This document shows positions 431-24,133 of a stretch of 34,610 nucleotides of DNA, in pieces. How positions within the stretch are numbered: the first letter of the stretch is position 1; each line of letters starts with the position of its first letter. The translations under genes and the position numbers were made by a program. This DNA is from an uncultured Bacteroidota bacterium (GTDB lineage Bacteria; Bacteroidota; Rhodothermia; Rhodothermales; UBA10348): contig CALEEY010000126.1 of assembly GCA_937877085.1 (NCBI GenBank), positions 1 to 34,610 of the forward strand, given 5' to 3'. A model generated the notes under the pieces. That model saw only the letters and a list, made by a program, of their open reading frames with translations, had not been told where the DNA came from and made no database searches.

Positions 431-1294
431 TCAGTTCGGGACCTGCCCATTGAGCAATCCCAATTTATTAAGGGTGTCCGAATCGAGCAGCCAAGCGAAT
501 TCAAATACCCCTACAGAGGCAAAAAAACCGTGTGCGCGGTCCAAATTTCCGTCGATCTCTTTACTGGTCCACTCCTTGCTAAACAAGGTCATTTCCATGG
601 AGACCCTTCGTACCGTTACGCCTTTTGTATTGATATTGAGATCCAGCCCGTTCATGATGATATACCGATCCGTACTGAGGTCAATATCAAACTCCCAGCC
701 GCGTGCCGTCGCCGAACCCGGATCTCCATAGGCAACGCGGATTACTTGCACCCCGGAGTCATCGGGAGGACCTACTTCATAGCGTACATATACAGCGGTA
801 GGTTTCTGTGTCACGCCTAATAACGTGAAGTGTTGGGATACATTCAGGGAGTCCCCGACCGGGCTATCCACGATTACTTCGGGCCGAAGCGGAAGCTCGG
901 AAACGGCTTCGGCGCCCGGAGCCCCATGGCGACTGACAAGAAGAGAATACACGTGGCCAAGCGTGGGGCGGAACTCGGCCACAAACAAATGGCCTTGAGA
1001 TCCATCATCGAGTACGACCGAAGAATCTCTCCAAACTTCGAAGGTGCCGTCGTTTCGGTCGATGGTAGTAACCTGCACACCTTCCAAAGATAGTGGATCC
1101 GATAGAATCGTGGGGCGAAGCAAATCGACTCGAACCTTTTGCAGCGATGTACGCATATCCAGATATCCATAAATGGCGTAAATGTCTTGTCCTTCATCGG
1201 CAATTGGGTCAATAGCATTCTCGCAACCAAGCAGCGTTATCAACGCAGCGGCAGCACACACCAAGGGTCCTATGGTACGATAGAGAATTTTCAT
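431..1294 (-). CDS. DUF4249-type outer-membrane lipoprotein
   Basis: This 287-residue protein begins with a lipoprotein signal peptide; the lipobox is LLGC with Cys24 as the predicted lipidated residue. The mature part starts with an IYGYLD segment followed by beta-rich sequence with repeated V-x-V and Y-x-L strands, which resembles DUF4249 proteins. Those proteins are encoded next to TonB-dependent receptors in Bacteroidota, and the partner role is inferred. Its ATG overlaps the stop of the upstream receptor gene by four bases (ATGA, 1291-1294), so the two are almost certainly co-translated. Substrate is unknown. The family call rests on context and general sequence character more than on a diagnostic motif. 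Confidence 0.65.
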   Translation of the reverse strand: MKILYRTIGPLVCAAAALITLLGCENAIDPIADEGQDIYAIYGYLDMRTSLQKVRVDLLRPTILSDPLSLEGVQVTTIDRNDGTFEVWRDSSVVLDDGSQGHLFVAEFRPTLGHVYSLLVSRHGAPGAEAVSELPLRPEVIVDSPVGDSLNVSQHFTLLGVTQKPTAVYVRYEVGPPDDSGVQVIRVAYGDPGSATARGWEFDIDLSTDRYIIMNGLDLNINTKGVTVRRVSMEMTLFSKEWTSKEIDGNLDRAHGFFASVGVFEFAWLLDSDTLNKLGLLNGQVPN

Positions 1295-3669
1295 CGGACA
1301 TCGACTCGTATCCCTACGGAAGGGATAATGGGGAGTTGATCGATCCGGCTCCCCGTAAAAATGTTGTACTCAAAGATGTTATTGCGGTCGTAGACATTGA
1401 TGACTCCAGCCATCGCCGTTAATTCGGCTCCTGGGAGCGCAAAGGAACGCTCAATAGTAATATCTAAGCGGTGATACGTGGGGAGCCGGGAATCGTATAG
1501 CTCGGCTCGAGAGACAAACGTATGCCCAACGCTCGTTGCAAAATCCGTGTTTCTGGGATCAATGGAGTCCTTCAAGTCGGCATAGTATCCATTTACCTGA
1601 GTAAAAGGTAATCCCGATCCAAATTGCCACCTCACGCTAACCTTGTTGGAGCCCATTCTGTATTGCGCCATCGCTTTCAATTGGTCCCGTCGGTCATGCG
1701 GGGGATTGAAGGTGTTTTCATCCAAAAGAGTTGCCTGACCAAAATTGGGGCGAAATACGCCGCTCGCACGTTGGGCATCTCGGTGATATTCCACCTTTGA
1801 CTTGCTATAGGACACCGAAAAGAAAAAGTCTTGGCTCGTGACCTCAACTTTCGTGTCGATTCCCTGGGCGTAGCCGTCCACTTTTGAAAATTCGGCTACC
1901 TTATTTACCGCATTCCCGAAGACAGGGAAAGATATGTCAGACAAGTTTTTCCGGTACGCCTCAAAGGTGAGCTCAAGCCACGGTCTGGGTCGACCTTTCC
2001 ACCCACCGATCAGATGTACCGCCTTTGGAACCGGGGTATTGTTAGGGGAAGCAGACCAGACGGTAAAAACATCAGAAACGTCTTGCTCGTTGTTTAGGCC
2101 CACTATTTGTTGATGATAAACCCCTCCTGCCAAACTGAATTGGTGGTGACTACCCGATCCGTTGGGCAAATAGGTGATCCTTCCACGCGGCGCAATGGTA
2201 TTTTTTAGCCCTCGCGAAAATATTTCCAATCGGACTCCCGGTTCCAATCGAAATTTCTTTCCCAGGTTAAATTGGCTCTCAAAATAGGAGCCGACGCTGG
2301 TCACCCCAGAATTGCCTTCCGTCCCCAGCGATCCCAGTTTGTACTCAAAAAAGTTGGTGTTGCCGAAGATTCCGAAGTTTACTTGGCTGGGTCCCAGGAG
2401 ATAGACGAAACCAATACTCATGTTCAAATCCGAAACGTCCGACGTCCTTAACTCGTCGCGGGTCGGACGATATCTGCTTTCCAGGCTGGAATAGTACACC
2501 GCCAACTCCGTCATTACCGCGTTTTCTGGAGGGATATACGTGTATTTCCCTCCAAACGCCCGGTTTTTCCATGTCGACTTACGAAAAGTGGGATCCGACG
2601 GGTCGGAACTCGTTCCGAGGTTGCCTTCGTCCGAGGTGGTAAGCGCCGTAATCGTTAAACTGCTGGTTTGATTTAAATACGAATGGAGTTTGGCGTAACG
2701 ATCTCCAAATCTAAACGGCAGCTCCTGCCCTAGAAGTTGAGGGCTTATCCGGTCTATAACGGACTCTCGGGCCGAAAGAATGAGCGACGTATCGCCTGGG
2801 CGAACGGGAATAGAAACATTAAATCCGCTTAAAAACGGTGCAATCGAGGCAGAATAGGTTAGCTTTTCCTTGCTCCCATTCACCGTCTTGATGTCAATAA
2901 CCGACGAGATTCTGCCACCGTAACGCGCACCGAAACCGCCTGCATAGACATCGGCATAGGATATAATGTCGGCTGGAAAGGCACTGTAAAATCCGACGAT
3001 GTGAAACGGCTGAAAAATCCTCATGCCGTCAACCAAAACCAGGTTTTGTGTCGGTGTCCCGCCCCGAATAAACAATTGGCCACCTCGATCTCCGGTTGAA
3101 ACCACGCCCGGCAACGTCAATAAATATCCCGCAAGATCGTAGGACACGTCGGGCATGGGTACCCGCGTGAGATCTTCCGGGCGAACCGTCTCAAGACCCG
3201 CTACAAACTTGTTGAGGTCTTGACGTTGGGTCTCAACGAGCACCTCCTCCAAAAAAGTACGTGTGGGCTGCAGCAGCACATCGTATGGCTCTTGCTGAGG
3301 TAGTTGAAGCGTGTCCGATCTGGATTCGTAGCCAAGAAACGACGTCTGTACGACGTATGTGCCCTTTTCAATGTGCTCAAACGAATACCGGCCGCTCGCA
3401 TTTGTAATACTACCAAAGACTATCTCGCCGTTGCGAATAATGGCTACGGTGGCCCCGGGTAAGCCGATTCTTGATTCCGCGTCGAGAATACGGCCGTATA
3501 AGGAGGGATCCGTTGCGCTCGCATGCGTTGCCCCCTCGGCCAGCCCTGAAATGGTCACCACCTGAAACCGCCCAGCAAACGCCGTAGGTACCGTCGTCGA
3601 ACATTGTAGTACGAGTACGATACCCAGAACGGTAAGCTTTTTGGAGAAAAATGGCTTGGTGAGTGTCAT
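1291..3669 (-). CDS. TonB-dependent outer-membrane receptor
   Basis: This 792-residue protein has a signal peptide (about residues 1-32), a CarboxypepD_reg-like domain (about 57-135, with GRILDAESRIGLPGATV and GRYSFEHIEKGTY), a plug domain (about 160-262, with LFIRGGTPTQNLVLVDGM and FGARYGGRISSVIDIK), and a beta-barrel filling the rest. The family imports large or scarce ligands such as metal chelates, vitamins or oligosaccharides across the outer membrane using TonB energy. There is no SusD-type neighbour; the partner is instead a DUF4249-type lipoprotein encoded with a four-base overlap, so a polysaccharide-utilisation role is less likely. The C-terminus ends in V-R and not in the aromatic residue common in outer-membrane barrels. 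The nearby histidine-triad protein hints weakly at metal-related uptake, but the ligand cannot be read from sequence. Confidence 0.9.
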   Translation of the reverse strand: MTLTKPFFSKKLTVLGIVLVLQCSTTVPTAFAGRFQVVTISGLAEGATHASATDPSLYGRILDAESRIGLPGATVAIIRNGEIVFGSITNASGRYSFEHIEKGTYVVQTSFLGYESRSDTLQLPQQEPYDVLLQPTRTFLEEVLVETQRQDLNKFVAGLETVRPEDLTRVPMPDVSYDLAGYLLTLPGVVSTGDRGGQLFIRGGTPTQNLVLVDGMRIFQPFHIVGFYSAFPADIISYADVYAGGFGARYGGRISSVIDIKTVNGSKEKLTYSASIAPFLSGFNVSIPVRPGDTSLILSARESVIDRISPQLLGQELPFRFGDRYAKLHSYLNQTSSLTITALTTSDEGNLGTSSDPSDPTFRKSTWKNRAFGGKYTYIPPENAVMTELAVYYSSLESRYRPTRDELRTSDVSDLNMSIGFVYLLGPSQVNFGIFGNTNFFEYKLGSLGTEGNSGVTSVGSYFESQFNLGKKFRLEPGVRLEIFSRGLKNTIAPRGRITYLPNGSGSHHQFSLAGGVYHQQIVGLNNEQDVSDVFTVWSASPNNTPVPKAVHLIGGWKGRPRPWLELTFEAYRKNLSDISFPVFGNAVNKVAEFSKVDGYAQGIDTKVEVTSQDFFFSVSYSKSKVEYHRDAQRASGVFRPNFGQATLLDENTFNPPHDRRDQLKAMAQYRMGSNKVSVRWQFGSGLPFTQVNGYYADLKDSIDPRNTDFATSVGHTFVSRAELYDSRLPTYHRLDITIERSFALPGAELTAMAGVINVYDRNNIFEYNIFTGSRIDQLPIIPSVGIRVDVR

Positions 3670-3804
3670 CGGACAATAAAAAATACAACCAGCCGTGATG
3701 GCTTCGGGGCTCAGAAAAAGTTAGACGACGGGAATGCTCCTTTCAATTCAATTGGCTGAAAATACACTCGATTGGTAAATGGATCAGAATCCAATTAGTT
3801 TTGG
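3670..3804. promoter_or_regulatory. Divergent intergenic region between receptor gene and small-protein genes
   Basis: This spacer should hold the promoter of the minus-strand receptor operon and the promoter of the plus-strand small genes. Visible structure: AGCC-GTGAT-GGCT near 3694-3706 in the receptor leader, and nested repeats ATTGG...CCAAT (3771-3795) around GGAT-CAGA-ATCC (3781-3792). No convincing -35/-10 pair was found on either strand. Confidence 0.3.
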
Positions 3805-3921
3805 ATGAAGTATTATAAGGGGATGCCTTTTCGAAGAGTATCCGTTTTTCAAAAGTACCCTGTTGCGGAAGATCACCTGGTTTTTAATGCCAACCCGAAC
3901 GCCCTCTGGCCAAATCAATGA
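3805..3921 (+). CDS. Possible 38-residue small ORF translationally coupled to the next gene
   Basis: An ORF from ATG 3805 (or ATG 3823) ends in a TGA that overlaps the ATG of the next small gene as ATGA (3918-3921). The encoded peptide is basic and aromatic at first (MKYYKGMPFRRVSVFQKY) and ends in ALWPNQ; it has no signal or membrane segment. The start-stop overlap is the same arrangement used between real genes in this window, which suggests a leader peptide or coupled small protein. A chance ORF of this size is also quite possible. Confidence 0.3.
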   Translation: MKYYKGMPFRRVSVFQKYPVAEDHLVFNANPNALWPNQ

Positions 3922-4154
3922 AGAAAAAAGCACGATTTTACATACTTTTGGCCATGAGCATCTTTTTAACCATGGTATTGATTGATTCTTTTGGAGTCTT
4001 CGACGATCAAACGTTCAACGAAGTGCCCCATGGTAGTCATACCCACTACGTTCCTAAAGATTGCGATCCTCCACTACCCGTAAGCGATTCGCCCACTCGG
4101 CGTCCATCGGCTAACGAGCACATCGACTGCACCGGACAGTACGTCCCCAACTAG
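3918..4154 (+). CDS. Small membrane-anchored or secreted protein with a single histidine-triad motif
   Basis: The 78-residue product has a basic start (MKKKARFY) and one hydrophobic segment at about residues 8-22, which could be an uncleaved anchor or a signal peptide. A short soluble tail of about 50 residues follows, predicted to be outside the cytoplasm. The tail carries VPHGSHTHYVP, an H-x-x-H-x-H pattern (His38, His41, His43) with two cysteines (Cys49, Cys71) and a further His68. The pattern is nearly the same as the zinc-binding histidine triads of streptococcal Pht proteins, so metal binding is a reasonable inference, but there is no wider similarity that I can see. It is convergent with the acetyltransferase gene, and the two share CTAG as both stop codons. 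I do not recognise a named family. Confidence 0.65.
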   Translation: MKKKARFYILLAMSIFLTMVLIDSFGVFDDQTFNEVPHGSHTHYVPKDCDPPLPVSDSPTRRPSANEHIDCTGQYVPN

Positions 4155-4642
4155 CGGTTGGACAGCAACGTGATGGCGGACCGGTCGAGACGCATGGTGG
4201 TCCAATCCGAAAGTGGAGCGGCCCCAAGTTGTTTGTAAAACGAAATGGCTGGTTCATTCCAGTCCAAAACATTCCAGTCCAATCTCATACACCCCCTTTC
4301 TTCTGCTATTTGGGCCAGTTGTTTGAAGAGCGCGAAGCCAATTCCGCGTCCTCTACATTCCTCTTCAACGAACAAATCTTCTAGAAAGAGGCCGAAGTTT
4401 GTTAAAAACGTGGAATAGTTGTGAAAGAACAAGGCAAAACCAACGCACCTACTCGATGCGTCGTCAAAGGCGACTAATGCCTCAATTTTAGGGGACGCAT
4501 GTGGGGCCAATTGCTGTCGGAGAGCATTTTCGTCAGGGCGCGAGGCATTTCGGAGTCGTTCATAATCGGCCAAGCCGTTAATCAGGCGAACTAAGTCTGG
4601 GGCGTCGTCAGGGACGGCTGGACGGATTGAAAAAGAAGGCAT
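4151..4642 (-). CDS. GNAT-family N-acetyltransferase, diamine/polyamine type
   Basis: This 163-residue cytoplasmic enzyme has the complete GNAT fold. It shows an N-terminal SIRPAVPDDAPDLVRLI segment, a LEDLFVEEECRGRGIG acetyl-CoA loop (RGRGIG at 97-102), and the C-terminal DWNVLDWNEPAISFYKQLGA. The combination of Y-S-T-F, LEDLFV and WNVLDWNEPAI-FY matches the spermidine/spermine N1-acetyltransferase subgroup, so a small amine or amino acid is the probable acceptor. The exact substrate is not determined by sequence. The gene starts 14 bases after the M1 peptidase stop on the same strand and is probably its operon partner. Its 3' end overlaps the convergent small gene by four bases. Confidence 0.85.
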   Translation of the reverse strand: MPSFSIRPAVPDDAPDLVRLINGLADYERLRNASRPDENALRQQLAPHASPKIEALVAFDDASSRCVGFALFFHNYSTFLTNFGLFLEDLFVEEECRGRGIGFALFKQLAQIAEERGCMRLDWNVLDWNEPAISFYKQLGAAPLSDWTTMRLDRSAITLLSNR

Positions 4643-4656: not shown

Positions 4657-6711
4657 CTAGCGAGTAATTACGAAGGACTGGAGTCGAGCCGTTGAGCCCT
4701 GAGCAACGCGTATGTGGTAGATTCCGGCTGGAAGGCCCGAACCATCCACGGCAACATCGGTCTCGCCATCCCCTATCCGCTGGATGGATTGTGACCTTAC
4801 CACCCTGCCCAACAAGTCGAAGACCGTCAACTGTATCGGGGTTTCCGATTGGGTCGATTCTATGTGAACGTTGATCGCACCCGCCGAAGGGTTGGGGTAC
4901 ACAGAGACATTGAACGGGGCCCCTAGATTGGAGCCGTCATCAACGGACACTTTCACTGGCGATTCGCCCCTTAATATCCATCGATCGGGATCGACTCTAA
5001 CGGATAACGCCTCTTCTGGTACGTCTATCGTGTAGATTTGGACATCCTGGATGTTTTCCACCTGGACACGATACGTCTTGTTAGCCGTCGTTATTTCGAG
5101 CCAAACGGGCATTTCGAATACCGGAACGGTGGACTCGTCTGCAGCCTGAATTTGACTCAGCGTGATGCGAACCTGGGGATTGGTGGCCGTGCCCACATTA
5201 GTCCAATTCACATCGTACGTGGGGTATCCTGTACCAACGTACACCCACTGATCAAAAAACGTTTGAAACGACCGTCCAGATACCTGTTCGACCACGTGTT
5301 GAAAGTCGGAAGTGGTTACCGATCCGTAGGCGAAAGCAGGGGTAGCGGTATAGGTTCTTAATATTTGCTTGAATACGTCATCCCCAACAATGCCTCGAAT
5401 CATCCGAAGCACCATATATCCCTTGGCATAGACACCGTTGAAATCGAACAGTTCAGCAACCTCGGTCGTGTCCTGTTGAACCAATGTCCCGCGTTCCAAA
5501 AGAGCCCTTTGGTAGTAAATATTGCCCAAAACCCTCTGAAGGTTGGCATATTTAGCGTCGGTATCATAGACCAAAAACTCGCTCATGGTGGCAAAACCCT
5601 CGTTGAGCCACAGGTCGGACCACGACTTGGGGGTCAATTTGTCGCCAAACCATTGATGAGCCAACTCGTGCGCGATTAGTTCGGCTCCAATGTTGCCCAT
5701 CGAGCTGAGGGTTTGATGCTCCATCCCGCCTTTAAAGGTGACGTGGGCATGTCCGTACTTTTCTTTGGCAAAGGGATAGGGTCCCAGCCAGTCTTCAAAA
5801 ACAGACATCATTTCAAGCGCAAGTCTCCAACCACTGCTCGGGCTAATCCCTTGAAAAGCATCGGCACCCTTGTACACAAAATGTTGGATGGGGAAGGCAC
5901 CTGGGCCATAGAGTGTTTCCAACGCAGACGAGCGAGTGTACGTCTGTTTATACTCGTCGTATTCTCCAATTGCAAGGGAAACTAGATAGGTGGAAATGGG
6001 ATATCGATGGATCCAATCGAACGTAGCCGATCCGTCCATGTGGAGAGTCTTACTGAGAAGCACCCCATTGGAAGCGACCGTCATCGGGGACGGGACTCGA
6101 ACCGTTATCCGAACGGAATCAGCCTTATCTGCCAACTGATCGTCGGCCGGCCACCATTCCTTAGACCCGTATGGCTCAGACAACGTCCATATAGTGTTTG
6201 GCTTTCCGGGCACATTTTGAATACTGGTAAAGGCCCCAAAACCGGTTGAAATAGGGTTTCCATGGTAAACAATATCCAATTCCAGCGTCGTTCCTCGTAA
6301 CAATTTGGTCTTTAACACCACCGTTATTTTATCGTTTTGGTGGGATGCGGCCAAAACCTGCCCAGATGTCAAACTAACAAAGTCGAGTGCGAGGTTGGTC
6401 GATAGGTCGAATTGAAGAGAATCGGTATCTGCGAGGGCTGTCCCAACAATTCGGTTTCGACCTAATAAAATGGGATTACGCAGCCCATTGAGGTTTAACG
6501 TCAGGTGGTAATAAGAAACGTCAAAACGATCGGCTAGGTGGGATGGGGCCTTGACGCCCACCTGTTTCGAAGAAACTTGGCGCGCACTTGGGTGCGCTGT
6601 TATGGGGAAATCTTGTCCCCATACGACCGCTGAGGGGAAAATTCCAAGGCCGCACATCGCTAATAGAATGCTTAAAAGCCGTAGAGCGTGGGGCCGAACA
6701 GTCTGAATCAT
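4657..6711 (-). CDS. Secreted M1-family zinc aminopeptidase with type IX sorting domain
   Basis: This 684-residue protein has a signal peptide (about 1-32), an N-terminal beta-saddle (about 60-250) and a zinc-peptidase domain. The motif HELAH (348-352) with Glu371 gives the HExxH-x18-E zinc site, and Tyr428 in VYAKG is the probable transition-state tyrosine. The substrate motif reads GGMEH (328-332) where many family members have GAMEN. The C-terminal 85 residues (VYPNPSAGAINV, then LFDLLGRVVRS-like strands and LPAGIYHIRV) form a Por-secretion type A sorting domain, so the enzyme is expected to cross the outer membrane by the type IX system and be released or attached at the surface. It removes N-terminal residues from peptides, presumably for nutrient gain. 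The acetyltransferase gene follows closely downstream. Confidence 0.92.
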   Translation of the reverse strand: MIQTVRPHALRLLSILLAMCGLGIFPSAVVWGQDFPITAHPSARQVSSKQVGVKAPSHLADRFDVSYYHLTLNLNGLRNPILLGRNRIVGTALADTDSLQFDLSTNLALDFVSLTSGQVLAASHQNDKITVVLKTKLLRGTTLELDIVYHGNPISTGFGAFTSIQNVPGKPNTIWTLSEPYGSKEWWPADDQLADKADSVRITVRVPSPMTVASNGVLLSKTLHMDGSATFDWIHRYPISTYLVSLAIGEYDEYKQTYTRSSALETLYGPGAFPIQHFVYKGADAFQGISPSSGWRLALEMMSVFEDWLGPYPFAKEKYGHAHVTFKGGMEHQTLSSMGNIGAELIAHELAHQWFGDKLTPKSWSDLWLNEGFATMSEFLVYDTDAKYANLQRVLGNIYYQRALLERGTLVQQDTTEVAELFDFNGVYAKGYMVLRMIRGIVGDDVFKQILRTYTATPAFAYGSVTTSDFQHVVEQVSGRSFQTFFDQWVYVGTGYPTYDVNWTNVGTATNPQVRITLSQIQAADESTVPVFEMPVWLEITTANKTYRVQVENIQDVQIYTIDVPEEALSVRVDPDRWILRGESPVKVSVDDGSNLGAPFNVSVYPNPSAGAINVHIESTQSETPIQLTVFDLLGRVVRSQSIQRIGDGETDVAVDGSGLPAGIYHIRVAQGSTARLQSFVITR

Positions 6712-6922: not shown

Positions 6923-7507
6923 ATGAGACGCCTTTTACTTTCTTTCCTCCTACCTCTTTTAGTTCTCCCTGCGTTTGCTCAAAATTCGGCCGACCCCAAC
7001 CCTGAGTTGGTTCGATTCGATCGAAATCATTCCACCCTTGGCTTTAATGTCCCGATTGTTATGGGGCTTTCGAAAGTAACTGGAAAATTTACCGACTTCT
7101 CCGCAGACCTTATTTGGAAGGCTGAAGACTTGGAAGCCTCGTCTGTACAGCTGAAAATCAACGTTGAATCCATTGATACGGGAATTGAAGCTCGAAATAA
7201 TCATCTGAAATCCGACGCGTTTTTCGACGTGGCTCTGTATCCAACCATCACTTTTGCGAGTTCCAACATCCGCAAAAACGGAGACGACTATTTGGTTGAT
7301 GGCACGATCGTAATGCATGGGATCGCACGCGAAATCACGATTCCTCTGAACGTCCGTACGTTTACCGAGGGGGAGCAATCATGGACCTCGTTTCGAGTGA
7401 TCACGACATTAGATCGAACCGACTTCGGAATGAATTGGAAACACAGCAACGCCGATTTCTTTGTTGGTAATGAGATTGAAACCGATATCGTCCTGCTTAC
7501 TCGATAA
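6923..7507 (+). CDS. YceI-family periplasmic lipid-binding protein
   Basis: The 194-residue product has a signal peptide with predicted cleavage after Ala19 (LPAFA-QN) and a mature YceI lipocalin-like barrel. Typical features are FDRNHSTLGFNVPI near the start, KVTGKFTDFSADL, the central IDTGIEARNNHLKSDAFFDV and YPTITFASS segments, and DRTDFGMNW near the end. Family members bind isoprenoid or amphiphilic molecules in the periplasm; the ligand and physiological role here are unknown. The gene is monocistronic in appearance. Its last 11 bases overlap the end of the convergent BFD-like gene. Confidence 0.9.
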   Translation: MRRLLLSFLLPLLVLPAFAQNSADPNPELVRFDRNHSTLGFNVPIVMGLSKVTGKFTDFSADLIWKAEDLEASSVQLKINVESIDTGIEARNNHLKSDAFFDVALYPTITFASSNIRKNGDDYLVDGTIVMHGIAREITIPLNVRTFTEGEQSWTSFRVITTLDRTDFGMNWKHSNADFFVGNEIETDIVLLTR

Positions 7508-7694
7508 TGGATGCATCGAACGTGGTTCGACCATCTTTGAGCATTTGACGGACATACGGGATGCACAATCTGCAGGATAAACCAAAGGGGCGGGCTTTCT
7601 GAAGATCTTCGACCGAGGTAATACTCTTATCGATCGCTGTTTTTTTCAGCAATTCGAAAGTCACTTGCGAACAAATACACTGTGTTACGGCCAT
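7497..7694 (-). CDS. Stand-alone BFD-like [2Fe-2S]-binding protein
   Basis: The 65-residue protein has a C-x-C pair near the N-terminus (Cys6, Cys8) and a C-x-x-C pair (Cys41, Cys44), separated by a helical region ending in an S-V-E-D-L-Q-K-A-type segment. This matches the Fer2_BFD fold of bacterioferritin-associated ferredoxin and of the small domains in nitrite reductase and related oxidoreductases. A role as an electron carrier, possibly in iron release or redox sensing, is inferred. No bacterioferritin or reductase gene is in the window. It is transcribed divergently from the tolC-like gene and converges on yceI with an 11-base overlap. Confidence 0.72.
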   Translation of the reverse strand: MAVTQCICSQVTFELLKKTAIDKSITSVEDLQKARPFGLSCRLCIPYVRQMLKDGRTTFDASIIE

Positions 7695-9981: not shown

Positions 9982-11016
9982 TTGATCTTGGATACCTTGG
10001 AAGGATACGTTCTACACACGTACGGAAGTGAACGCTATCTCCGGCACGCAGTCGCGTCGGTGCACACGTTACGTCGCCACGATTTGAAGCGGCCCGTTGC
10101 CTTGTACGCAGATGAAAGTCAGATAGCGCGATTAAAAGAAACAGGGCTGGATCGTTTATTTGAGGTGCTTGAAGTCCTGCCGCCAGCCAATCGGTCGATT
10201 GTGGGCTTCAAACATCATCTGTCCTCCTTCAAGCCATTTGAAAAATGCTTATTCGTGGACTCAGACATTGTGTGGTGTCGAAATCCCGATCCTATGTGGA
10301 GGAAGCTTCAAGCCTACCCGTTTACCGCAACCGGTCTTGAAAAGGCCGATGCTTGGTTTGGCGGACCAAAAGGACTTGGGATTATTCTCGATCGTTTGCT
10401 CGATCGCAGGCGTCGGACAATGAAGCGCTTCGACCTGACCTATCTACCGCGGATTCAAGCCGGTGTCATTTATGCTTCGGATAATGACACGACCAGCCAC
10501 GTAACGGCCAAAGCTAGAGAGTTCTTGTCCAGGCGGTCAGAAACCCATTTCCGGAGCCGATTGGACGAAGGACGTAGTGAAGAAAGCTGCGAATGGAGCA
10601 TCGCCATGGCCATGAGCTCTTCAGATCTTCCAATCATTCACTGGTTTCAAGGGCAAGACAGCCCTCAAATGGACTATATAGAGGGTTATGTAGAGCACGA
10701 CACCGATTTTATGGACGTTCGTTGTCTCTATTATACCGATGCGTTTATTCATGGCCTGAGAGGACTCCCAAATGCTACGTTGCGTAAATTTTTGGTAGAA
10801 GTCCTTTCAAAGCTTCCGGGTCGTGGCGACTATATGTGGGTAACTCCTTACGCCCTCCATTTTGGCTGGATGCGTCACAAACAGCCATTTTTTGACTTGT
10901 CCGATCGCATCTGGGAGGCTTTGGTGGAGGAGAGAGAAGTAAAAGGAGGCCCGGTAATTGGCGATGGCTTCGATGTTCCGTCTGAAATCATGGAATCGAT
11001 TGGGGAGCAAAACTAG
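9982..11016 (+). CDS. Glycosyltransferase-like protein with a DxD motif (GT-A fold)
   Basis: The 344-residue soluble protein starts like retaining GT-A enzymes (YVLHTYGSERYLRHAVASV) and carries CLFVDSDIVW with the metal-binding DxD at Asp93-Ser94-Asp95. A QAGVIYASD strand occurs where the family has an acceptor-side loop. The donor sugar and the acceptor are unknown, and I cannot assign a CAZy family with certainty; GT8-like is the nearest fit. No in-frame ATG lies near the start: the frame opens right after a TGA (9979-9981) with TTG codons at 9982, 9988 and 9997, so a TTG start is probable. The gene converges on the membrane-barrel fusion gene and shares CTAG as the stop of both. Confidence 0.7.
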   Translation: MILDTLEGYVLHTYGSERYLRHAVASVHTLRRHDLKRPVALYADESQIARLKETGLDRLFEVLEVLPPANRSIVGFKHHLSSFKPFEKCLFVDSDIVWCRNPDPMWRKLQAYPFTATGLEKADAWFGGPKGLGIILDRLLDRRRRTMKRFDLTYLPRIQAGVIYASDNDTTSHVTAKAREFLSRRSETHFRSRLDEGRSEESCEWSIAMAMSSSDLPIIHWFQGQDSPQMDYIEGYVEHDTDFMDVRCLYYTDAFIHGLRGLPNATLRKFLVEVLSKLPGRGDYMWVTPYALHFGWMRHKQPFFDLSDRIWEALVEEREVKGGPVIGDGFDVPSEIMESIGEQN

Positions 11017-12746
11017 GTTCTGATGGCTAGATGCCATAAAAAGGTTATCTGATCCAGGTGAAACAGTGCCCAACCGGTGAATATCAAGGAGCCTAGGATC
11101 AAAGGGTTGAATACCCAAATGAGTAGGGCCACTCCAGGACCGATCCGAGCTACTTTATACAGATCGAAGGCCGTACGAATCGTTGCCCAATACGCGCATC
11201 CAATCCAAGTCCCACCCAAGAGCATAACGGCCCACAGGGGAACGTTTCCGACGGACTCAAAGGTCATGGCGATGGGTAGAATAAATAATACTTGCCACCG
11301 TGGCCAGACAGCTAGCATGAGCGCCTGACTCGGATACAGTGGACTGCGCCTGCCCGAGGCCATAATCCATAGTCCCATCCATAAGGCCATGGAAATGAGA
11401 GCACCACTTCCCATCAAAATGGCCAGAACGAACGGGGCGTCGAGCACAAGGGTCAATGAGGAACGCATGGTAGAGTCCATCATCGCAAACATGTGCAAAA
11501 CGAGTTTGGTATCCCGGACGGAGGTAATAACGTGCGTGGCTATTAGCCCGATAGACAGTCCTGTTATGGTCAAAATGGCTGTCGAGGTGATAGGCAAAAC
11601 TTCTCTCGCCTCCCGAACTGCATTTCTATAAAATCCATGCGCGAAGAAATACCTCGGAATGGTAGATCTAAATCGAGGCGAACCTGTGTAGATGACTGCC
11701 ATCATGGACAGTAAAAGCCAACCTACCAAGGCAAACCAGTGCAGAGGTCGTAACGGCGGGTTCCCCCGCTCAAAAACAAACGTCTCTTGCACCCCTAAGT
11801 ACACACCTCGCATGACGTACAGGGCAGGGCGAGGATCTTTCGCTCGATTATAGAGACCATAATTTCGACCGTAGGGATCTGGAATCTGTTGTTGGCTGAA
11901 AATTTCGTCTTTCCAACGGTGCACGAACACCAAAGGCACGCCCGTATCCTTTAATCCCGCAAAAACATTCTCCAGAAACCTCGCCTGGAATTGAGGGCTT
12001 CCTTCAATTAGCGTACCCGCTTCCCGGCCCGCTATCACGCTGGTGCCTATCCGGGCAAATCCAGCTGGGGTTTCGTGCGAAGACCGCCAGCGCTCCAATA
12101 AGGTGTGTGGTTGCTCGATGTCTAGAGCGTCCAGCAAAACGAAATCCACGTTCGACGAGCAGGCATCGGTTTCGATAAATGAGGTAACATAATACGCTTG
12201 CCCCCCGGCTGCGCGAATTTTGTCGCGTACTCTTTTTAGACCCTCGCACGCCCCTGCCGAACTAGTATCCGAATTACGAGCGAGGCCTATTGGACCTGCC
12301 GATCGGTGGCCCTTACCAGCCTCTAACAAGAGGTTGACCAAAGAATCCGCAACCGAAAGCGAGTCGGCCAACGACTTCGCATTCAACCCAAAAAAGGGTA
12401 GTTCGCGATAAAACACGATTCCAAGGGAATCGGCCATTGAAAGGAGTCCGGCATCGAACAGGTTGCCGGTTCGGATCATATTGACTCCCATCAACTTCAT
12501 TTCAAGCAGATCTTGGGCCGCTTCCTGATAGTCCCCAGGAATTTCCCAGGCAACGCCTTTCCCGGGCGTGATTCCCTTGCCCAATTCCAGAAGGGAAGGA
12601 GCCGTTATTTGGACGAGTTCTTCCCGAGCCTGACGTAAGGAGTCCTCCGCCTGACCTTGAGGATCCACAATTTGCCGTCCCCAAACAGGGCCGAGCGAGA
12701 TCAGCGCTAGTGCGATTAGAGCTATGAATCGGAAAGCAATTTTCAT
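11013..12746 (-). CDS. Fusion of a periplasmic glycosidase-like barrel with a polytopic Yip1-like membrane domain
   Basis: From ATG 12746 the product has 577 residues with a signal peptide (MKIAFRFIALIALALISL...). A TTG at 12791 would give a longer and less plausible start. Residues of about 30-310 look like a TIM barrel of the GH2/GH5 type: MGVNMIRTGN, LGIVFYRELPFFG, FVLLDALDIE, VFVHRWKDE and YGLYNRAKDPRPAL resemble the strand ends and the C-terminal edge of such enzymes. The usual catalytic N-E and E pair is not clear. The last 240 residues have about six membrane helices, including a stretch with APFVLAILMGSGALI that resembles Yip1-type domains. The topology suggests a barrel held at the periplasmic face of the inner membrane. 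Function is unknown. Confidence 0.6.
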   Translation of the reverse strand: MKIAFRFIALIALALISLGPVWGRQIVDPQGQAEDSLRQAREELVQITAPSLLELGKGITPGKGVAWEIPGDYQEAAQDLLEMKLMGVNMIRTGNLFDAGLLSMADSLGIVFYRELPFFGLNAKSLADSLSVADSLVNLLLEAGKGHRSAGPIGLARNSDTSSAGACEGLKRVRDKIRAAGGQAYYVTSFIETDACSSNVDFVLLDALDIEQPHTLLERWRSSHETPAGFARIGTSVIAGREAGTLIEGSPQFQARFLENVFAGLKDTGVPLVFVHRWKDEIFSQQQIPDPYGRNYGLYNRAKDPRPALYVMRGVYLGVQETFVFERGNPPLRPLHWFALVGWLLLSMMAVIYTGSPRFRSTIPRYFFAHGFYRNAVREAREVLPITSTAILTITGLSIGLIATHVITSVRDTKLVLHMFAMMDSTMRSSLTLVLDAPFVLAILMGSGALISMALWMGLWIMASGRRSPLYPSQALMLAVWPRWQVLFILPIAMTFESVGNVPLWAVMLLGGTWIGCAYWATIRTAFDLYKVARIGPGVALLIWVFNPLILGSLIFTGWALFHLDQITFLWHLAIRT

Positions 12747-12977: not shown

Positions 12978-14246
12978 TTAATCCATCATTTTTCGAAGGA
13001 ATGCAGGTATCTCTTTGTCAACAGACGCGTTGCCGTCTACCGGCTGAATATCTTCCTTGTTCAAAAGACGTACACGAGTCGAACCGGTGATGGCTCCACC
13101 GTCTCCCCCAACGGGTTCAACCGTCAGTTGGGCACCCCTGCGTTCAAAAGCAGGTTTATCAAGGTCTCGGAGGCTGCCTTCACCCTTATAGCTAACGCTT
13201 GGAAATTCGAGGCCACCGCGTGGACTGAGTTCCACCCGCTTGCCCGGAATTCTCTGCTCAGGAACGATACTTTTTTCAAAACCGGTCGCGATAACAGTAA
13301 TTCTCAAATCCTCGCCCATCTTATCGTCAATCACGGTACCGAAAATAATTTCGACCTCATCACCCGCTTCCTGCTGAATAATGCGAGTGGCCGCCGTGGC
13401 TTCGCGGATTCCAAGAGATCTGCCAGCCGTAATATTTACAAGCACGTTTCGGGCGCCTTTAATAGATAAACCATCAAGTAAAGGACTTGAAAGGGCTTCT
13501 TTGGCCGCTCTTTCGGCTCTATTCTCCCCGCTGGCCGTTGCGGCCCCCATCATGGCCGTGCCCCCATTACTCATGGTGGTTTTCACATCTGCGAAGTCTA
13601 GATTTATAAGACCGTGAACGGTAATGAGGTCCGAAATTCCCCTCGTTGCATTGTACAGGACGTCATCCGCCGTTTCGAATGCTTCCAACATAGACGTGTC
13701 AGCATCCGCAATGTCCAATAAGCGTTCGTTCGGAATGATGATGAGCGTATCTACGTTCTTTTTGAGTAGATCTACGCCTGCACCAGCGAATTTCGACCTT
13801 TTGGGGCCTTCGCATTCAAAAGGTCTGGTCACGATGGCTACAGACAAAATACCTAGGTCTTTGGCGATTGCGGCCACTATTGGGGCCCCTCCCGTACCGG
13901 TACCACCGCCCATTCCCGCGGTAATAAAGACCATATCAAATCCCCGAAGGGCGCTTTCAATTTCCTTACGGCTTTCTTCTACGGCTTCCGCTCCAATACT
14001 CGGACGCGCACCGGCTCCAAGTCCTTTTGTAAGTCCTCTACCTGCTTGGATCTTGTAAGGAGCTAGATTATTGTCTAACGCCTGCGAATCCGTGTTAATG
14101 GCGTAAAACTCTACGCCCGTAATACCCTTGTTAATCATGTTGTTAACGGCATTGCCTCCGCCGCCGCCAACACCGATTACGCAAATTTTTGCTTCTTCAT
14201 TTTCTGCATCATCAAATGAGAAATGAGTGCTGAATAAGTTCTCCAT
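12978..14246 (-). CDS. ftsZ: Cell division protein FtsZ
   Basis: This 422-residue tubulin homologue forms the cytoplasmic GTP-dependent Z ring. It has the nucleotide-binding [14 protein letters not shown] near residues 25-38, the tubulin signature GGGTGTGG (113-120), and the T7 synergy loop NLDFADVK (215-222) that supplies the catalytic Asp. A variable linker of about 85 residues follows, and the C-terminal peptide [11 protein letters not shown] is the site that binds FtsA. An AGAGGA Shine-Dalgarno-like element precedes the ATG by four bases (14251-14256), one of the few clear ones in the window. The 76-base gap from ftsA is the largest in the cluster and may hold an extra promoter, although no clear -35/-10 pair is visible. 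ftsZ is the last gene of the dcw operon. Confidence 0.98.
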
Positions 14247-14322
14247 GTAGTCCTCTAGTCGTTCTGTTTTGGCTGTATATAAATCGCATCGAATGAGCCG
14301 TTCGACGGATTCGTTGGTAAGG

Positions 14323-15597
14323 TCAGAGTTCGTTGAACCAACCCATCATGGACCTTTTAATCTTTTCGACCATGTTATCCCCACCTCCAGATGGGTTTGA
14401 CGTGTCGATCTGATCGGTCCGAAATGGGGTGCTTCCTATCATTTCCGGTCTGAGCCCGTATAACACGAGCCCGACCGCTGTTGCAAATTTGGGGTCAGAT
14501 ACTTCCTTGACAAGGCCGGCGGTGAGTCCCATGGGCCGTCCAATCCGAGTTTCCAATCCCAAAATTTCGGCTGCGAGTTCGGCAGTTCCCGGTATCAGGG
14601 AACCACCTCCAGTCAATACGGCACCAGCGGAGAGGTGCCGTGAGAACCCGCTTCTTTTAATTTCAATGGAGGCTATCTCAAGGATTTCCTCCATACGAGG
14701 TTGTATGATTTGAGCCAGCGTACTACGCCCGACCCGTTTTTCCGTACGACCTCCCACTCCCGGAATAGCAATTTCCTCTTCCGGTGCCATTTCGGCCATA
14801 GCAATTCCAAATTCGCACTTCAGGGCTTCGGCCTGATCGCGCATCACACCTAATCCCTTCCGAATGTCGTCGGTAACTTTATTTCCGGCCACAGCTACGA
14901 CAGCCGTGTGGCGAATGGTATTGTCCTCAAACACGGCGATATCCGTGGTTCCGCCACCAATATCAATAAGCGCTACTCCTACCTCTTTTTCATCCGAGTG
15001 AAGGACTGCAAAGGACGACCCCAGGGGTTCTAATACGATGTCGGCGACCTGATAACCCGCCTTTTCAACACACCGGTAAATATTTTTTGCCGCGGAAACC
15101 AGCCCCGTAATAATGTGAACATTGGCTTCAAGCCGAACCCCACTCATGCCCACGGGGTCGGCCACGCCGTCTTGCCCGTCGACAATAAATTCCTGCGGGA
15201 TAACGTGCAAAATCTCACGATCCGCAGGCATGGCAACATGCGTCGTATCCTCCAGAAGGCGTTGGACATCGGCTTCGGTAATCTCTCCATCCCGGTTCGA
15301 AATGGTCACCACACCGCGAGACTGGAAACTTTGAACATGGTCCCCGGCGATACCTACAATTACATTTCGGACCGAAACTCCCGCCATTCGCGAGGCCTCT
15401 TCTATGGCTTCGCGCACGGCATTGACGGTCTTGTCAATATTTACCACCACGCCTCGGTTCAGCCCATCTGATTCGGCCACGCCAACACCCAAAATGTTGA
15501 CTCGGCCCAAGTCGTCGGACGTAGCCACAACGGAGCACACTTTTGTGGTTCCGATGTCCAATCCAACAACAATTCGGTTATTACTGGTGTCTTTCAT
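14323..15597 (-). CDS. ftsA: Cell division protein FtsA
   Basis: The 424-residue actin-like ATPase anchors FtsZ to the membrane and recruits later divisome proteins. The N-terminal phosphate loop [14 protein letters not shown], the central [13 protein letters not shown] phosphate-2 segment and the adenosine-contacting GGGSLIPG are all present. The C-terminus [15 protein letters not shown] is an amphipathic membrane-targeting helix of the FtsA type. The start ATG overlaps the ftsQ stop by one base (TAATG). Length and motif order match the family. Confidence 0.97.
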
Positions 15598-16367
15598 TAG
15601 TTACTGATGTCTTTTTCAGGGCGCCGATGCTCCTGTTTGGTGACGACCTGGCTTGCAAATCGCAAATCGATAGTCGTGTACTCTATATCTTGATGCCGTA
15701 ACACTTCCTGCTCCCAAAAAGCGTCCAGAATCTTAAATTTGTCGGCAAATTCGGATTCCCCCATGAGAACGGGGATGGAAGCGTGTTTTCCAATAGGAGT
15801 CGTCCTGATTTCAAATCCGGTGTCGATGCGTCGCATTTCCGAAAGAACAGCGTCGGAGGCTGGGCTCAAATTCGGCAATTCGAACAGCATGTCTTTTACG
15901 ACTTGGTCCGAAACGGGAATCATTGGATTATATCCTTCTAGCTCTCCTGAAATAATCGGAACAGCGTACCACATCACATCGGTTATAGGCATTCTAAAGC
16001 CATTCCGATCGTAATAAAACCCGATTTTTCCGTTGCTCTCAAGCGCCTGCGCCACAGGATATCTCTCCAAAACTCGAATGTCTAAAAGGCCGGTTGGAAG
16101 TCTGGAAACATGAGCTTCCATGATCCAGGGGTGCCTTCTAATGCGGTCTTCCAAGATCTGAGGATCCAAATCGAACAATACCGCCCCGGTATCGACCCGG
16201 ATTAAATCCCGAACCTCTTGTTCACCAGCATTTACAAGACCTTGAATCTGGATTTCAGCAAGCGTCACTTTACTAAGCCAGTTCCATCCCGAATACCCGA
16301 CCGTTCCGATTCCCAATACAAATAGGAATCCGAATATGTTTTTCCACAGGGAAGCGCGTTTTGCCAT
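15597..16367 (-). CDS. ftsQ: Cell division protein FtsQ/DivIB
   Basis: The 256-residue bitopic protein has a short cytoplasmic start, a single membrane segment at about residues 11-29, and a periplasmic POTRA domain (about 35-105, with IQIQGLVNAGEQEVRDLI and HPWIMEAHVSRLPTGLLDI). The following beta domain has RFASQVV near its end. FtsQ links FtsA/FtsZ to FtsL/FtsB and the septal synthase. Both borders are one-base TAATG overlaps with murC and ftsA, so translation is probably coupled. Sequence divergence in this family is high, and its position between murC and ftsA strengthens the call. Confidence 0.92.
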   Translation of the reverse strand: MAKRASLWKNIFGFLFVLGIGTVGYSGWNWLSKVTLAEIQIQGLVNAGEQEVRDLIRVDTGAVLFDLDPQILEDRIRRHPWIMEAHVSRLPTGLLDIRVLERYPVAQALESNGKIGFYYDRNGFRMPITDVMWYAVPIISGELEGYNPMIPVSDQVVKDMLFELPNLSPASDAVLSEMRRIDTGFEIRTTPIGKHASIPVLMGESEFADKFKILDAFWEQEVLRHQDIEYTTIDLRFASQVVTKQEHRRPEKDISN

Positions 16368-17791
16368 TAGTTTGCCTCCTGTAGTCGGTTATAGATTTGT
16401 CGATTTAACCGCCAAATGTCGCCAGCACCTAGGGTCAAAATCACGTCCCCTGGTTTGGACAAGCGCAGTACAAATTCGACTAAATCGTCTTTTTGTGGCA
16501 CATATTCGACGTGAGGATGGCCCGCTAAGTGCGCACCTTTTGCAATCATCTCCCCCGAAATGCCCTCCATGGGCTTTTCGCGAGCTCCGTACACGTCCAT
16601 AATGACCGCCACGTTGGCATCGAAAAACGAGCCGGCAAAATCGTTGCAAAGGTCGCGCGTGCGAGAGTACAAGTGCGGTTGAAAAACGGCTATAATGCGC
16701 CGGTCCGGCCAACATCCAGCCGCACCTTGAAGCGTAGCCTTGACCTCCGTGGGGTGATGGGCATAATCGTCAACTACCAACACGCCACCGGCCTCACCAA
16801 TTTCTTCCATGCGCCGCTGTACGCCGCTAAATCCGGCCAGTCCTAATGCGATCGAGTCGAATGCCATGTCTAACTCTAATCCAACAGCAATGGCGGCCAA
16901 CGCATTGAGGACATTGTGTTGCCCAGGTGCCGCCAGAGCGACCTGTCCCAGTCTGGCCTCGCCATCGTACACGTCGAAGGTCATATTTCGACCGTCCTGA
17001 CGAATTTTTTCGGCTCGGATTTGAGCTTGCCGAAGCGTGCCATAGGTCACCACTCGCCGGTCGATTCTACCCAAAATAGAGCGAACGTTTTCATCGTCGA
17101 GGCACACAATGGCCGCCCCAAAAAACGGCACGCTGGATGCGTATTGAACGAAAGCATCCTTGATGTCATCCAAATCTTTATAGCAGTCCAGATGGTCGGC
17201 ATCAATATTGGTGATGACCGCAAGCGACGGGGTAAGTCGCAAAAACGTTCGATCGTACTCGTCGGCTTCAATTAGGATGATATCGCCGTCCCCGGAAACC
17301 GCATTCGATCCAAACGCCGAAACCTTTCCTCCTACAATGATGGTCGGATCAAACTCGCCGGCATTTATAACGTGGCCGGCCATGGTAGTCGTGGTCGTTT
17401 TTCCGTGCGTTCCAGCGATCCCTATCCCGAATTTCATCCGCATCAATTCCCCTAGCATTTCCGAGCGCCGAATAACCGGAATGTGTTGCCTGAACGCGAA
17501 TTGAGTCTCCGGGTTGATGTCGGCATTTACCGCTGAGGAATGAACCACCACACATGCGCCTGCGGCGTTCGGTCCATCGTGACCTAGATAAATATCCGCA
17601 CCTAGGTCCTGGAGATGCATAGTTACCTCAGAGCTAGCCAGGTCGGACCCCGTCACTTTGTACCCTCGCATCAAGAGCACTTCGGCAATGGAGCTCATAC
17701 CGATACCCCCAACGCCCACCATATGGACGTGTGACATCTTCCCAAACGTGGGTTGACGACGGGTCTCTGCGGTATGGAAAAGGGTTTTCAC
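16367..17791 (-). CDS. murC: UDP-N-acetylmuramate--L-alanine ligase MurC
   Basis: The enzyme adds L-alanine to UDP-MurNAc, the first amino acid of the peptidoglycan stem peptide, in the cytoplasm using ATP. The 474-residue sequence shows the UDP-binding HMVGVGGIGMSSIAEVL, the ATP loop GTHGKTTTT (127-135), the ITNIDADHLD segment and the DDYAHHPTEV motif of the C-terminal domain. The start is GTG 17791, which overlaps the murG stop as GTGA; an ATG at 17737 lies 18 codons further in. Placement after murG and before ftsQ is the usual order, although ddl and murB are missing. Confidence 0.97.
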   Translation of the reverse strand: MKTLFHTAETRRQPTFGKMSHVHMVGVGGIGMSSIAEVLLMRGYKVTGSDLASSEVTMHLQDLGADIYLGHDGPNAAGACVVVHSSAVNADINPETQFAFRQHIPVIRRSEMLGELMRMKFGIGIAGTHGKTTTTTMAGHVINAGEFDPTIIVGGKVSAFGSNAVSGDGDIILIEADEYDRTFLRLTPSLAVITNIDADHLDCYKDLDDIKDAFVQYASSVPFFGAAIVCLDDENVRSILGRIDRRVVTYGTLRQAQIRAEKIRQDGRNMTFDVYDGEARLGQVALAAPGQHNVLNALAAIAVGLELDMAFDSIALGLAGFSGVQRRMEEIGEAGGVLVVDDYAHHPTEVKATLQGAAGCWPDRRIIAVFQPHLYSRTRDLCNDFAGSFFDANVAVIMDVYGAREKPMEGISGEMIAKGAHLAGHPHVEYVPQKDDLVEFVLRLSKPGDVILTLGAGDIWRLNRQIYNRLQEAN

Positions 17792-18918
17792 TGGTTGTGA
17801 AGCTCCGCTATCATTAAAACATCTTCTGCAATCCGTTCGGCCGCGTGGGGACGCGCCAAGTGGGCCGCTTGCTTCGACATCGCCAAAAGGCGTCCATTCG
17901 CATCTAGCAACTGCTTGATGCGGTCCAAAAGCTCACTTTTTAGCAAACTCTCTGGCAGCAATTCACAGGCGCCTTGTTTTTCGATGCTAAGGGCATTTTT
18001 CGTTTGATGATCTTCGGTCACATTGGGTGACGGAACCATTAGCGACGGCGTTCCGGTTAGCATGAGCTCGGCGCAAGTCGATGCACCAGAACGACATACA
18101 GCTAAATCGGCCGCTGCAAATGCCATATCCATACGGTCGATATACTTCAAAAGCCTAAGCCGTGGGTGCGCCGATACGCTCTCAGAAAAACGGTCAAAAT
18201 AGCGATCGCCGGTCTGCCAGATAATGCCCAGTCCCGGTATGGCCAACAGGCCGCTCAATTGAGTAGCAACGGCTTCGTTGATCGCTAAACTCCCCCCTGA
18301 ACCGCCAAAAATCAGAACGATCTTGTCGGCGCGTTCCAAGTCAAAAAAGGCCCTCCCTTCGCTCTTACTCGCTTTGGATAGATCCGCTCGGACGGGATTA
18401 CCGTTCATGTGAACTTTGCCTTTGACCTTTTGGGGACGCGCTTCTTCAAAGGCAAGATGGATGCTGTGTGCAAAGCGCGAGGCCAATCGATTAGTCAGCC
18501 CCATAAATGCATTTTGCTCCTGAACTACTATGGGGCGAACCAAATAGCGTGCGGCCAAGAGCACAGGTAGAGCCACAAAGCCACCCGTTCCAACAACCAC
18601 ATCGGCGTCGAATTGCTGAATGAGTTGGGTCGATTCTCTCAACCCCTTAGCTACCCGAAACGGCATTAATAGGTTTTGAGCAGTCAACTTCCGTTGTAAT
18701 CCCTGAACGGTAATCGGACTAATAGGATATCCCGCCTCCGGTACAATGCGCCATTCAATCTTGTCTGGAGACCCCGCGAATGAAATGGATGCACCGGGTC
18801 GTTTCGCCCGAATCGCGTCTGCAATAGCAATAGCCGGATACACGTGCCCACCGGTGCCTCCGCCCGTCATCAGAATTCTTGGATTCCGTCTTTTTGATAT
18901 AATGGCTGCGTTATTCAA
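17788..18918 (-). CDS. murG: UDP-N-acetylglucosamine transferase MurG
   Basis: MurG adds GlcNAc to lipid I to make lipid II at the inner face of the membrane. The N-terminal loop MTGGGTGGHVYPAIAIAD and the donor-side FGGSGGSLAINEAV are diagnostic; RSGASTCAEL and a HQTKNA motif follow in the C-terminal domain. A start at ATG 18993 would give an atypical long extension lying inside ftsW. The better start is TTG 18918, giving 376 residues, close to the family's usual length, and overlapping the ftsW stop by eight bases. TTG is unusual, but no ATG fits. Confidence 0.95.
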   Translation of the reverse strand: MNNAAIISKRRNPRILMTGGGTGGHVYPAIAIADAIRAKRPGASISFAGSPDKIEWRIVPEAGYPISPITVQGLQRKLTAQNLLMPFRVAKGLRESTQLIQQFDADVVVGTGGFVALPVLLAARYLVRPIVVQEQNAFMGLTNRLASRFAHSIHLAFEEARPQKVKGKVHMNGNPVRADLSKASKSEGRAFFDLERADKIVLIFGGSGGSLAINEAVATQLSGLLAIPGLGIIWQTGDRYFDRFSESVSAHPRLRLLKYIDRMDMAFAAADLAVCRSGASTCAELMLTGTPSLMVPSPNVTEDHQTKNALSIEKQGACELLPESLLKSELLDRIKQLLDANGRLLAMSKQAAHLARPHAAERIAEDVLMIAELHNQ

Positions 18919-20050: not shown

Positions 20051-20062
20051 CAGCTGTTTGGT

Positions 20063-22587: not shown

Positions 22588-22590
22588 GTT

Positions 22591-24096: not shown

Positions 24097-24133
24097 TACG
24101 TTTTTTTTCCTTCTGAATTAAAGTCATGAAAGT

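Follow-up and report, generated by a model that had tools for sequence, protein, structure and literature searches.

A histidine-triad small-protein family of the class Rhodothermia with paralogues in copper gene clusters and fusions to cupredoxin domains

The 34,610-nucleotide stretch of DNA analyzed here (the window; contig CALEEY010000126.1 of an uncultured Bacteroidota bacterium of the order Rhodothermales) encodes a small protein with one predicted membrane helix and a histidine triad (HxxHxH) in its tail. The gene is conserved throughout the class Rhodothermia, and the triad is conserved with it. Paralogues of the gene stand in copper and thiol-redox gene clusters, and four family members are fused to azurin-type cupredoxin domains; both observations are new here. 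Whereas the gene, its conservation across the class, its motif, the copper clusters around paralogues and the fusions are observed directly, we infer the periplasmic orientation, metal binding, the fourth ligand, the identity of the metal, its delivery and the direction of transfer. With about even confidence, we read the family as membrane-anchored periplasmic proteins that would bind and deliver metal, with copper as the metal of the paralogues and copper or zinc as that of the ancestral copy in the window.

The small gene and its conservation

The open reading frame (ATG start, TAG stop; Table 1) encodes MKKKARFYILLAMSIFLTMVLIDSFGVFDDQTFNEVPHGSHTHYVPKDCDPPLPVSDSPTRRPSANEHIDCTGQYVPN, in which a basic N-terminus leads into a single hydrophobic helix that is followed by a tail with HGSHTHY. 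An earlier reading made from the sequence alone (the sequence-only reading) had described 78 residues, a hydrophobic segment, the motif VPHGSHTHYVP, two cysteines (Cys49 and Cys71) and another histidine (His68), and this description matches the sequence exactly.

Among 60 genomes, 56 (the window's own genome counted) match the window protein at E below 1e-5. A looser tally at E ≤ 1 gives 57 through one weak match (G044, E 0.136), and the four genomes without a strong match are incomplete assemblies (70–84%). The pN/pS of the gene is 0.081 against G003 and 0.161 against G001, both of the same genus as the window; these values, which are ratios of proportions with nearly saturated synonymous sites, indicate purifying selection. 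A value of 0.89 against L055 was discarded because of a wrong start codon there (303 vs 234 bases). With only 78 codons, in a window full of ORFs of like length, the frame could be a chance ORF, but the gene is kept in 79/79 genomes of its order and its pN/pS is 0.08–0.16, and we therefore reject this explanation as having practically no probability. The opposite strand of the gene holds stop codons in the one frame tried.

Table 1. Features of the window around the small gene.
Feature	Position	Strand	Evidence or remark
Lipoprotein-like ORF after the TonB receptor gene	431..1294	-	Pfam (E ≤ 0.1) and NCBIfam (E ≤ 1) searches without a match
TonB-dependent receptor, divergent (CarboxypepD_reg-like and Plug)	1291..3669	-	Pfam; ortholog adjoins family gene in several of the order's families
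Intergenic region between small gene and TonB receptor gene	3670..3917	.	conserved piecewise within genus
Small His-triad protein CDS	3918..4154	+	78 aa plus stop; homologues, pN/pS
Basic N-terminus into hydrophobic helix (predicted membrane anchor), residues 3-24	3924..3989	+	AlphaFold helix; K/R before helix 60/60
Beta-hairpin with triad, residues 33-46 (strands 33-38, 41-46)	4014..4055	+	AlphaFold, block pLDDT 96-97
Histidine triad H38-G-S-H41-T-H43	4029..4046	+	invariant in 60/60 aligned members
Cys49, probable disulfide partner of Cys71	4062..4064	+	tail Cys counts
Cys71, probable disulfide partner of Cys49	4128..4130	+	tail Cys counts
GNAT acetyltransferase, convergent, downstream of small gene	4151-4642	-	
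M1 peptidase	4657-6711	-	
YceI protein	6923-7507	+	

Distribution of the family

A profile built from 60 aligned rows, chosen for likeness to the window protein, matched 114 of the 165 genomes searched in the class, all of which are at least 90% complete save the window's own at 89.96%. Every genome of the window's order has the family (79/79), as do 35/86 genomes in the rest of the class, distributed over family codes f18 (18/67), f17 (6/6), f16 (0/2), f47 (3/3), f48 (1/1) and f49 (7/7). An even sample of the phylum, in which up to 13 candidates were scored for each genome, gave matches in 69/392 genomes. Beyond the class, none of the 392 yielded a credible member. The single match there (G225, E 0.0014) is weak; the protein has 265 aa, lacks the triad, looks MOSC-like by eye and was not accepted as a member.

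On named GTDB contigs, 126 stretches fit the motif pattern and 109 were confirmed. Eighty of the 109, which served for names only, carry titles that include Bacteroidetes/Bacteroidota, Rhodothermales, Rhodothermaceae, Rhodothermia, Balneolales, Balneolaceae or with named genera (Fodinibius, Aliifodinibius, Balneola, Gracilimonas, Salinibacter, Salinivenus, Longimonas, Roseithermus and Rhodothermus, along with Salinibacteraceae bacterium). Fifteen stretches on viral contigs fit the pattern, none of them a relative by tblastn, and plasmid records gave no match to a query that was one of the paralogues. As far as seen, the family is confined to the class Rhodothermia, with the class named after the record titles.

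No Pfam or NCBIfam model matches the family above cut-off, and no paper on it was found in the open-access literature, with papers elsewhere possible. The suggestion of an undescribed small-protein family, made from the single sequence, is thereby supported: the family is apparently undescribed. The counts below that refer to 119 loci cover the loci fetched as regions (from 111 genomes), which leave out matches in G045, G298-G302, G304, G307, G311, G018, G023 and G026.

Architecture of the protein

The AlphaFold2 model of the window protein (mean pLDDT 96.4) has a helix at residues 3–24 and strands at 33–38, 41–46, 67–69 and 75–77, the last two short. Mean column identity among the 60 aligned members is 28%, and the sole invariant columns are H38, G39, H41, H43 and P63, with Y44, P46, P59, G73 and V76 near-invariant. 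The sequence-only reading had staked its proposal on a motif that is neither lost nor freely variable, and the motif behaves in this way: the first histidine is kept in 116/119 loci and the second and third in 119/119 each. The three replacements of the first histidine are all by lysine (L229, L231, L232) and surfaced only in this wider set. In genus g13 we observed a tandem second module without histidines (QNGKTYYIPDD-like; L097 9764-10189, L098 9678-10202, L100 9814-10227), which indicates that the module can apparently exist without the putative metal site.

A lysine or arginine precedes the hydrophobic helix in 60/60 members, which by the positive-inside rule suggests that the tail lies outside the cytoplasm. 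The cysteines of the tail are consistent with this orientation. Their number is 0 in 86 loci, 2 in 30 and 3 in 3 but never 1 (119 loci), and the pairs sit at +11/+33 (23), +28/+43 (6) or +14/+36 (1) from the first histidine. Because they occur in pairs that are gained or lost jointly at differing sites, the tail cysteines probably form a disulfide, which suggests an oxidizing compartment and an extracytoplasmic, presumably periplasmic, tail. Candidate positions for a fourth ligand, again counted from the first histidine over the 119 loci, are +10 (D 97, N 10, E 4), +12 (D 91, N 19, E 4) and +29 (E 102, Q 8).

A Foldseek search with the model of this very small module returned 85 matches at E ≤ 10, none at E ≤ 0.001, and no Pht chain among the best 50 of the 85. 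VIA-align, limited to Foldseek's own matches, gave none at Z ≥ 2.

Paralogues in copper and thiol-redox clusters

Eight genomes carry the family at two separate loci, and three more hold two matches in one ORF. In seven of the eight (G199, G242, G244, G248, G249, G250, G251), one copy stands in a copper/thiol-redox cluster, a set of metal or redox genes that are largely co-oriented. The remaining genome (G057) has the copy L223 (9553-9867) 238 bp upstream of a gene for a COG0523/CobW-type GTPase (10105-11193); this copy may be a zinc-linked paralogue. Single copies in similar clusters were found in five further genomes (G254, G255, G256, G257, G280), all of family code f18, which includes Fodinibius. 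Linkage was scored as a match to a seed protein within 5 kb of the family gene.

The clusters contain genes with the Pfam names DUF411, Copper-bind, Cytochrom_C_asm/CcmF_C, AhpC-TSA (TlpA-like), DsbD_TM, Cu-oxidase, SCO1-SenC, P-II, AcrB-type RND pump and E1-E2 ATPase. Of their P-type ATPases, one has CPH and a His-rich start, one CPC, and one CPC with CxxC. One of the 12 cluster copies (L241) has TlpA-like and CcmF neighbors only and no copper gene proper. In L229 (9894-10139), L231 (9874-10119) and L232 (9695-10063), the lysine variants read KGSHAHYVP and have an RND pump and a P-II-like gene as neighbors; in these three loci and L108, the P-II family gene (~105 aa) adjoins a heavy-metal-type RND pump.

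Any seed match within 5 kb was found in 17/119 loci. Family code f18 contributes 13 of its 25 loci, namely the 12 cluster copies and L234 with one weak TlpA match. As the copper seeds were drawn from L108, L225, L226, L229 and L232 (5/12 clusters) and the COG0523 seed from L223, these loci match by construction and their self-matches are not independent. Six loci that supplied no seed (L231, L235, L236, L246, L247, L248) match several copper seeds. In the tree of the family, which is based on few columns, the 25 f18 rows form one set (SH-aLRT 95) that holds all 12 cluster copies together with 13 others, and the copper association is therefore derived and possibly goes back to a single event.

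A DUF411 gene stands beside 8/12 cluster copies. DUF411 occurs in 132/165 class genomes, including 39/49 f18 genomes without the family, and is thus independent of it. A DUF411 gene also occurs in the genome of the window, on a different contig (L302, contig C206, 2276-2416).

Fusions to cupredoxin domains

In four loci (L225, L236, L246, L247), a complete family module, a linker and an azurin-type domain form one ORF, with the module as the N-terminal membrane anchor; the other 115/119 loci have no such fusion. The azurin seed matches inside the ORF in all four, and a PF00127 (Copper-bind) match was obtained in L225 and L236. The AlphaFold model of the L236 protein (mean pLDDT 77.8) matches azurins and auracyanin (best Foldseek E 2.5e-8). 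In L229 and L231, azurin is encoded by a separate lipoprotein-like gene 45 bp away.

Neighborhood of the ancestral copy

The TonB receptor next to which the sequence-only reading had placed the gene is indeed there, with Plug and carboxypeptidase-regulatory-like domains. Among 60 loci, 29 have a divergent receptor within 500 bp and 20 a convergent GNAT gene within 200 bp; no pairing with a receptor was seen in the other 31, some of them cut short by a contig edge. A tree built from 46 receptor proteins places 26 of the 28 adjacent receptors in one group, together with a split-ORF copy from G005. This ortholog group spans family codes f1, f2, f4 and f11, with a support of only 80 for the group as a whole, and the two other adjacent receptors (f15) group with a paralogous receptor. 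Because the 26 receptors are orthologous across four family codes, the pairing is old in part of the order and more than accidental; the notion that the neighbor reflects mere kinship was revised after this tree. The G005 copy (L054) consists of two ORFs, 496 and 283 aa long, possibly through a frameshift or an assembly error.

Four histidines are invariant in 26/26 adjacent receptor orthologs, which is too little to name a ligand. The receptor has no solved relative at E ≤ 0.001, and its matches in NCBIfam are all far below cut-off. In f1, the family gene usually stands alone between oppositely oriented neighbors, and many genomes have the receptor and lipoprotein pair twice in tandem, in two old paralogous groups (window 1291-3669; L052-L071). 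At their 3' ends, stop codons included, the small gene and the GNAT gene overlap by four bases (CTAG, 4151-4154), which leaves no space for a terminator between them. Upstream, near relatives share the blocks 'AATTG..GAAAATAC' and 'GTATTAT'; no palindrome was recognized by eye when near relatives were compared over the intergenic region, and a consensus scan of that region gave no sigma-70-type promoter match.

The ancestral copy has no copper-cluster neighbors. Outside f18, a seed match within 5 kb was found in only 4/94 loci, to a COG0523 GTPase (L090, L223) or to a P-type ATPase at 4.4–5.0 kb (L238, L257), and any function given to the ancestral copy is therefore carried over by homology. 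Elsewhere in the window, a 65-aa ORF (7497-7694) matches a BFD-like [2Fe-2S] domain below threshold (24.4 bits vs 26), and 12978-28221 holds an ordinary co-oriented division and cell-wall run recognized by sequence (FtsZ, FtsA, FtsQ-like, MurC, MurG, FtsW, MurD, MraY, MurE, FtsI, RsmH, MraZ).

Relation to streptococcal Pht proteins

The sequence-only reading had called the triad Pht-like. A profile of the family matches PhtA (2cs7) in the PDB at E 5.1e-4 and PhtD (9p1v) at E 7e-4 over the whole chain, with a best single stretch of 0.037; the matched stretches cover about 15 residues. The likeness is local (YIVPHGDHYHYIPK in 2cs7 vs EVPHGSHTHYVPKD in the family). In the window sequence and its AlphaFold model, the triad lies on a beta-hairpin, as in Pht, and the predicted hairpin layout resembles that of PhtA, in which zinc is bound by His194/197/199 at strands 188-193 and 196-201 (PMC3842936).

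Beyond this stretch the two diverge. PF04270 (Strep_his_triad) scores 17.7 bits against the window protein (cut-off 27), over residues 36-48 only, and 17.2 bits on the genome, also below cut-off; as 7/14 control genomes give sub-threshold matches at E ≤ 1, such a score means little alone. TIGR01363 reaches 11.5 bits against the window protein (cut-off 33) and at best 15.3 among the seven entries given, in which the window protein appears twice. The Pht motif set out in PMC3842936 ([DEH]-G-hydrophobic, 12-16 residues, a strand, HxxHxH and two hydrophobics), combined with a two-hit rule, was found by its authors in Firmicutes only; it matches 0/119 family loci, and its strand-plus-triad half alone matches 34/119. 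According to the same paper, Pht zinc is held by the triad and a Glu or Asp 20-21 residues upstream. In the family, positions -20 and -21 from the first histidine lack D and E in 119/119 loci and fall within the predicted membrane helix. Pht proteins have several triads, whereas each of 60 family members has one, and the phylum, context and partners of the family all differ. We therefore do not count the family as a member of Pht, and kinship beyond the 15-residue motif finds no support. We take the two to represent the same local solution, with no evidence that they share descent.

Proposed function and alternatives

The family members would span the inner membrane once, with a cytoplasmic N-terminus and some 50 residues of tail in the periplasm. 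This tail may form a small beta module in which the hairpin presents HGxHxH as a putative transition-metal site, with Asp +10, Asp +12 or Glu +29 as the candidate fourth ligand. A metal ion could thus be bound on the periplasmic side of the inner membrane, either for transfer to periplasmic or membrane metalloproteins or as a reserve for them. For the f18 paralogues, the likely partners would be the cupredoxin, multicopper oxidase, Sco/TlpA-type assembly factors and copper efflux; the ancestral copy in the window would probably play an equivalent housekeeping role for copper or zinc, possibly together with the divergent TonB receptor. The proposal of a metal-binding or metal-sensing peptide in the periplasm or at the surface, made from the single sequence, stands in that the tail appears to lie outside the cytoplasm (K/R 60/60, paired cysteines) and probably binds metal. 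Zinc as the assumed metal does not fare as well, with most paralogues pointing elsewhere and copper genes as their neighbors.

The main rival, which we consider unlikely, makes the protein a Pht-like zinc scavenger of the periplasm that supplies zinc uptake; the divergent TonB receptor would then admit zinc through the outer membrane. COG0523 GTPases are linked to zinc, and a gene for one follows L223 in G057 at 238 bp and lies 2.6 kb from the core copy L090; an orthologous receptor is divergently paired with the gene in several families. Near-identical triads of Pht bind zinc, as stated in PMC3842936, and the profile match to PhtA 2cs7 (E 5e-4, 15 residues) points the same way. However, seven of the eight two-locus genomes have a copper/thiol-redox copy and one has a copy beside COG0523, the acidic ligand of Pht is absent from the family, and the TonB pairing was not seen in 31/60 loci. 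Moreover, no ZnuA or Zur genes were noticed among the neighbors read, nor was a palindromic operator seen in the shared upstream region.

The histidines might instead stabilize the small fold or bind a structural metal, in a module that tethers partners to the membrane or arranges them there and serves as a mere cupredoxin anchor in the fusions. This we regard as improbable: the module is indeed the N-terminal anchor of the fused proteins, the prolines, Gly73 and Val76 are conserved too, one histidine is missing from three members and the second repeat of one lineage has none, yet the three histidines are more conserved than any other tail position except G39 and P63, and in L229 and L231 azurin is independent of the family anchor because it is a separate lipoprotein-like gene. 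About as improbable in our view is a thiol or heme helper in cytochrome c or oxidase maturation, placed between a TlpA-like thioredoxin and CcmF and acting on heme or on a partner's redox state instead of on free metal. CcmE carries heme and is a small beta protein of the periplasm with an N-terminal anchor and a functional histidine. TlpA-like, CcmF or DsbD genes lie near several paralogues, the L241 gene stands between TlpA-like and CcmF genes in a genome in which no DUF411 was found, and TlpA reduces ScoI and COX II in Bradyrhizobium (PMC6696091). Against such a helper, CcmE is not replaced, being present in 163/165 class genomes, the family has no CcmE-like HxxxY, and L229, L231 and L232 stand with an RND pump and P-type ATPases with no CcmF or TlpA within 5 kb.

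The preferred reading of membrane-anchored metal delivery can be extended, tentatively, to a joint account that we find possible but on balance doubtful. The family would be copper carriers found class-wide in Rhodothermia, with a Pht-type hairpin that probably arose independently of Pht and acts as donor or store. They would have been duplicated into copper-resistance and oxidase-assembly clusters and fused to cupredoxins as donor-acceptor pairs, and the ancestral copy would be a cuproprotein-assembly factor universal in the order, unnamed in any annotation, that receives copper via the TonB receptor.

The gene is kept in 79/79 order genomes of environmental bacteria, yet no Pfam or NCBIfam model covers it above cut-off. 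The paralogues suggest a testable role with copper or zinc, and a cupredoxin is a possible direct partner in view of the fusions. Should the metal site prove real, two distant lineages would have adopted one short hairpin to handle metals, perhaps different ones, and the hairpin would offer a compact module in which to compare the choice of zinc or copper by histidine triads.

Comparison with other known systems

CcmE resembles the family in outline, in that the family is likewise small and N-terminally anchored; CcmE has an HxxxY motif, which the family lacks. A replacement of CcmE by the family was rejected, as CcmE coexists with it in 113/114 carriers, G294 being the sole carrier without a match.

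The Sco/TlpA/PCuAC assembly factors resemble the family in context, with a SCO1/SenC gene next to one paralogue and TlpA-like genes next to several, and in kind, in that the family is small, probably periplasmic and has a putative histidine metal site. They differ from it in that no likeness of the family to them was found by Pfam or NCBIfam, and the family has neither CxxxC nor Met ligands as in PCuAC.

DUF411, which we take to be the CopG family of copper-resistance proteins, is a direct neighbor of the family in the copper clusters, although it is the commoner of the two in the class (132 vs 114 of 165). CopG works with the Cus pump (PMC8872213) and, as the title of a paper cited there indicates, has a different, Cys-rich site. 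Anchored cupredoxins such as azurin and auracyanin differ from the family, whose module is not itself a cupredoxin, yet four of its members are fused to such a domain.
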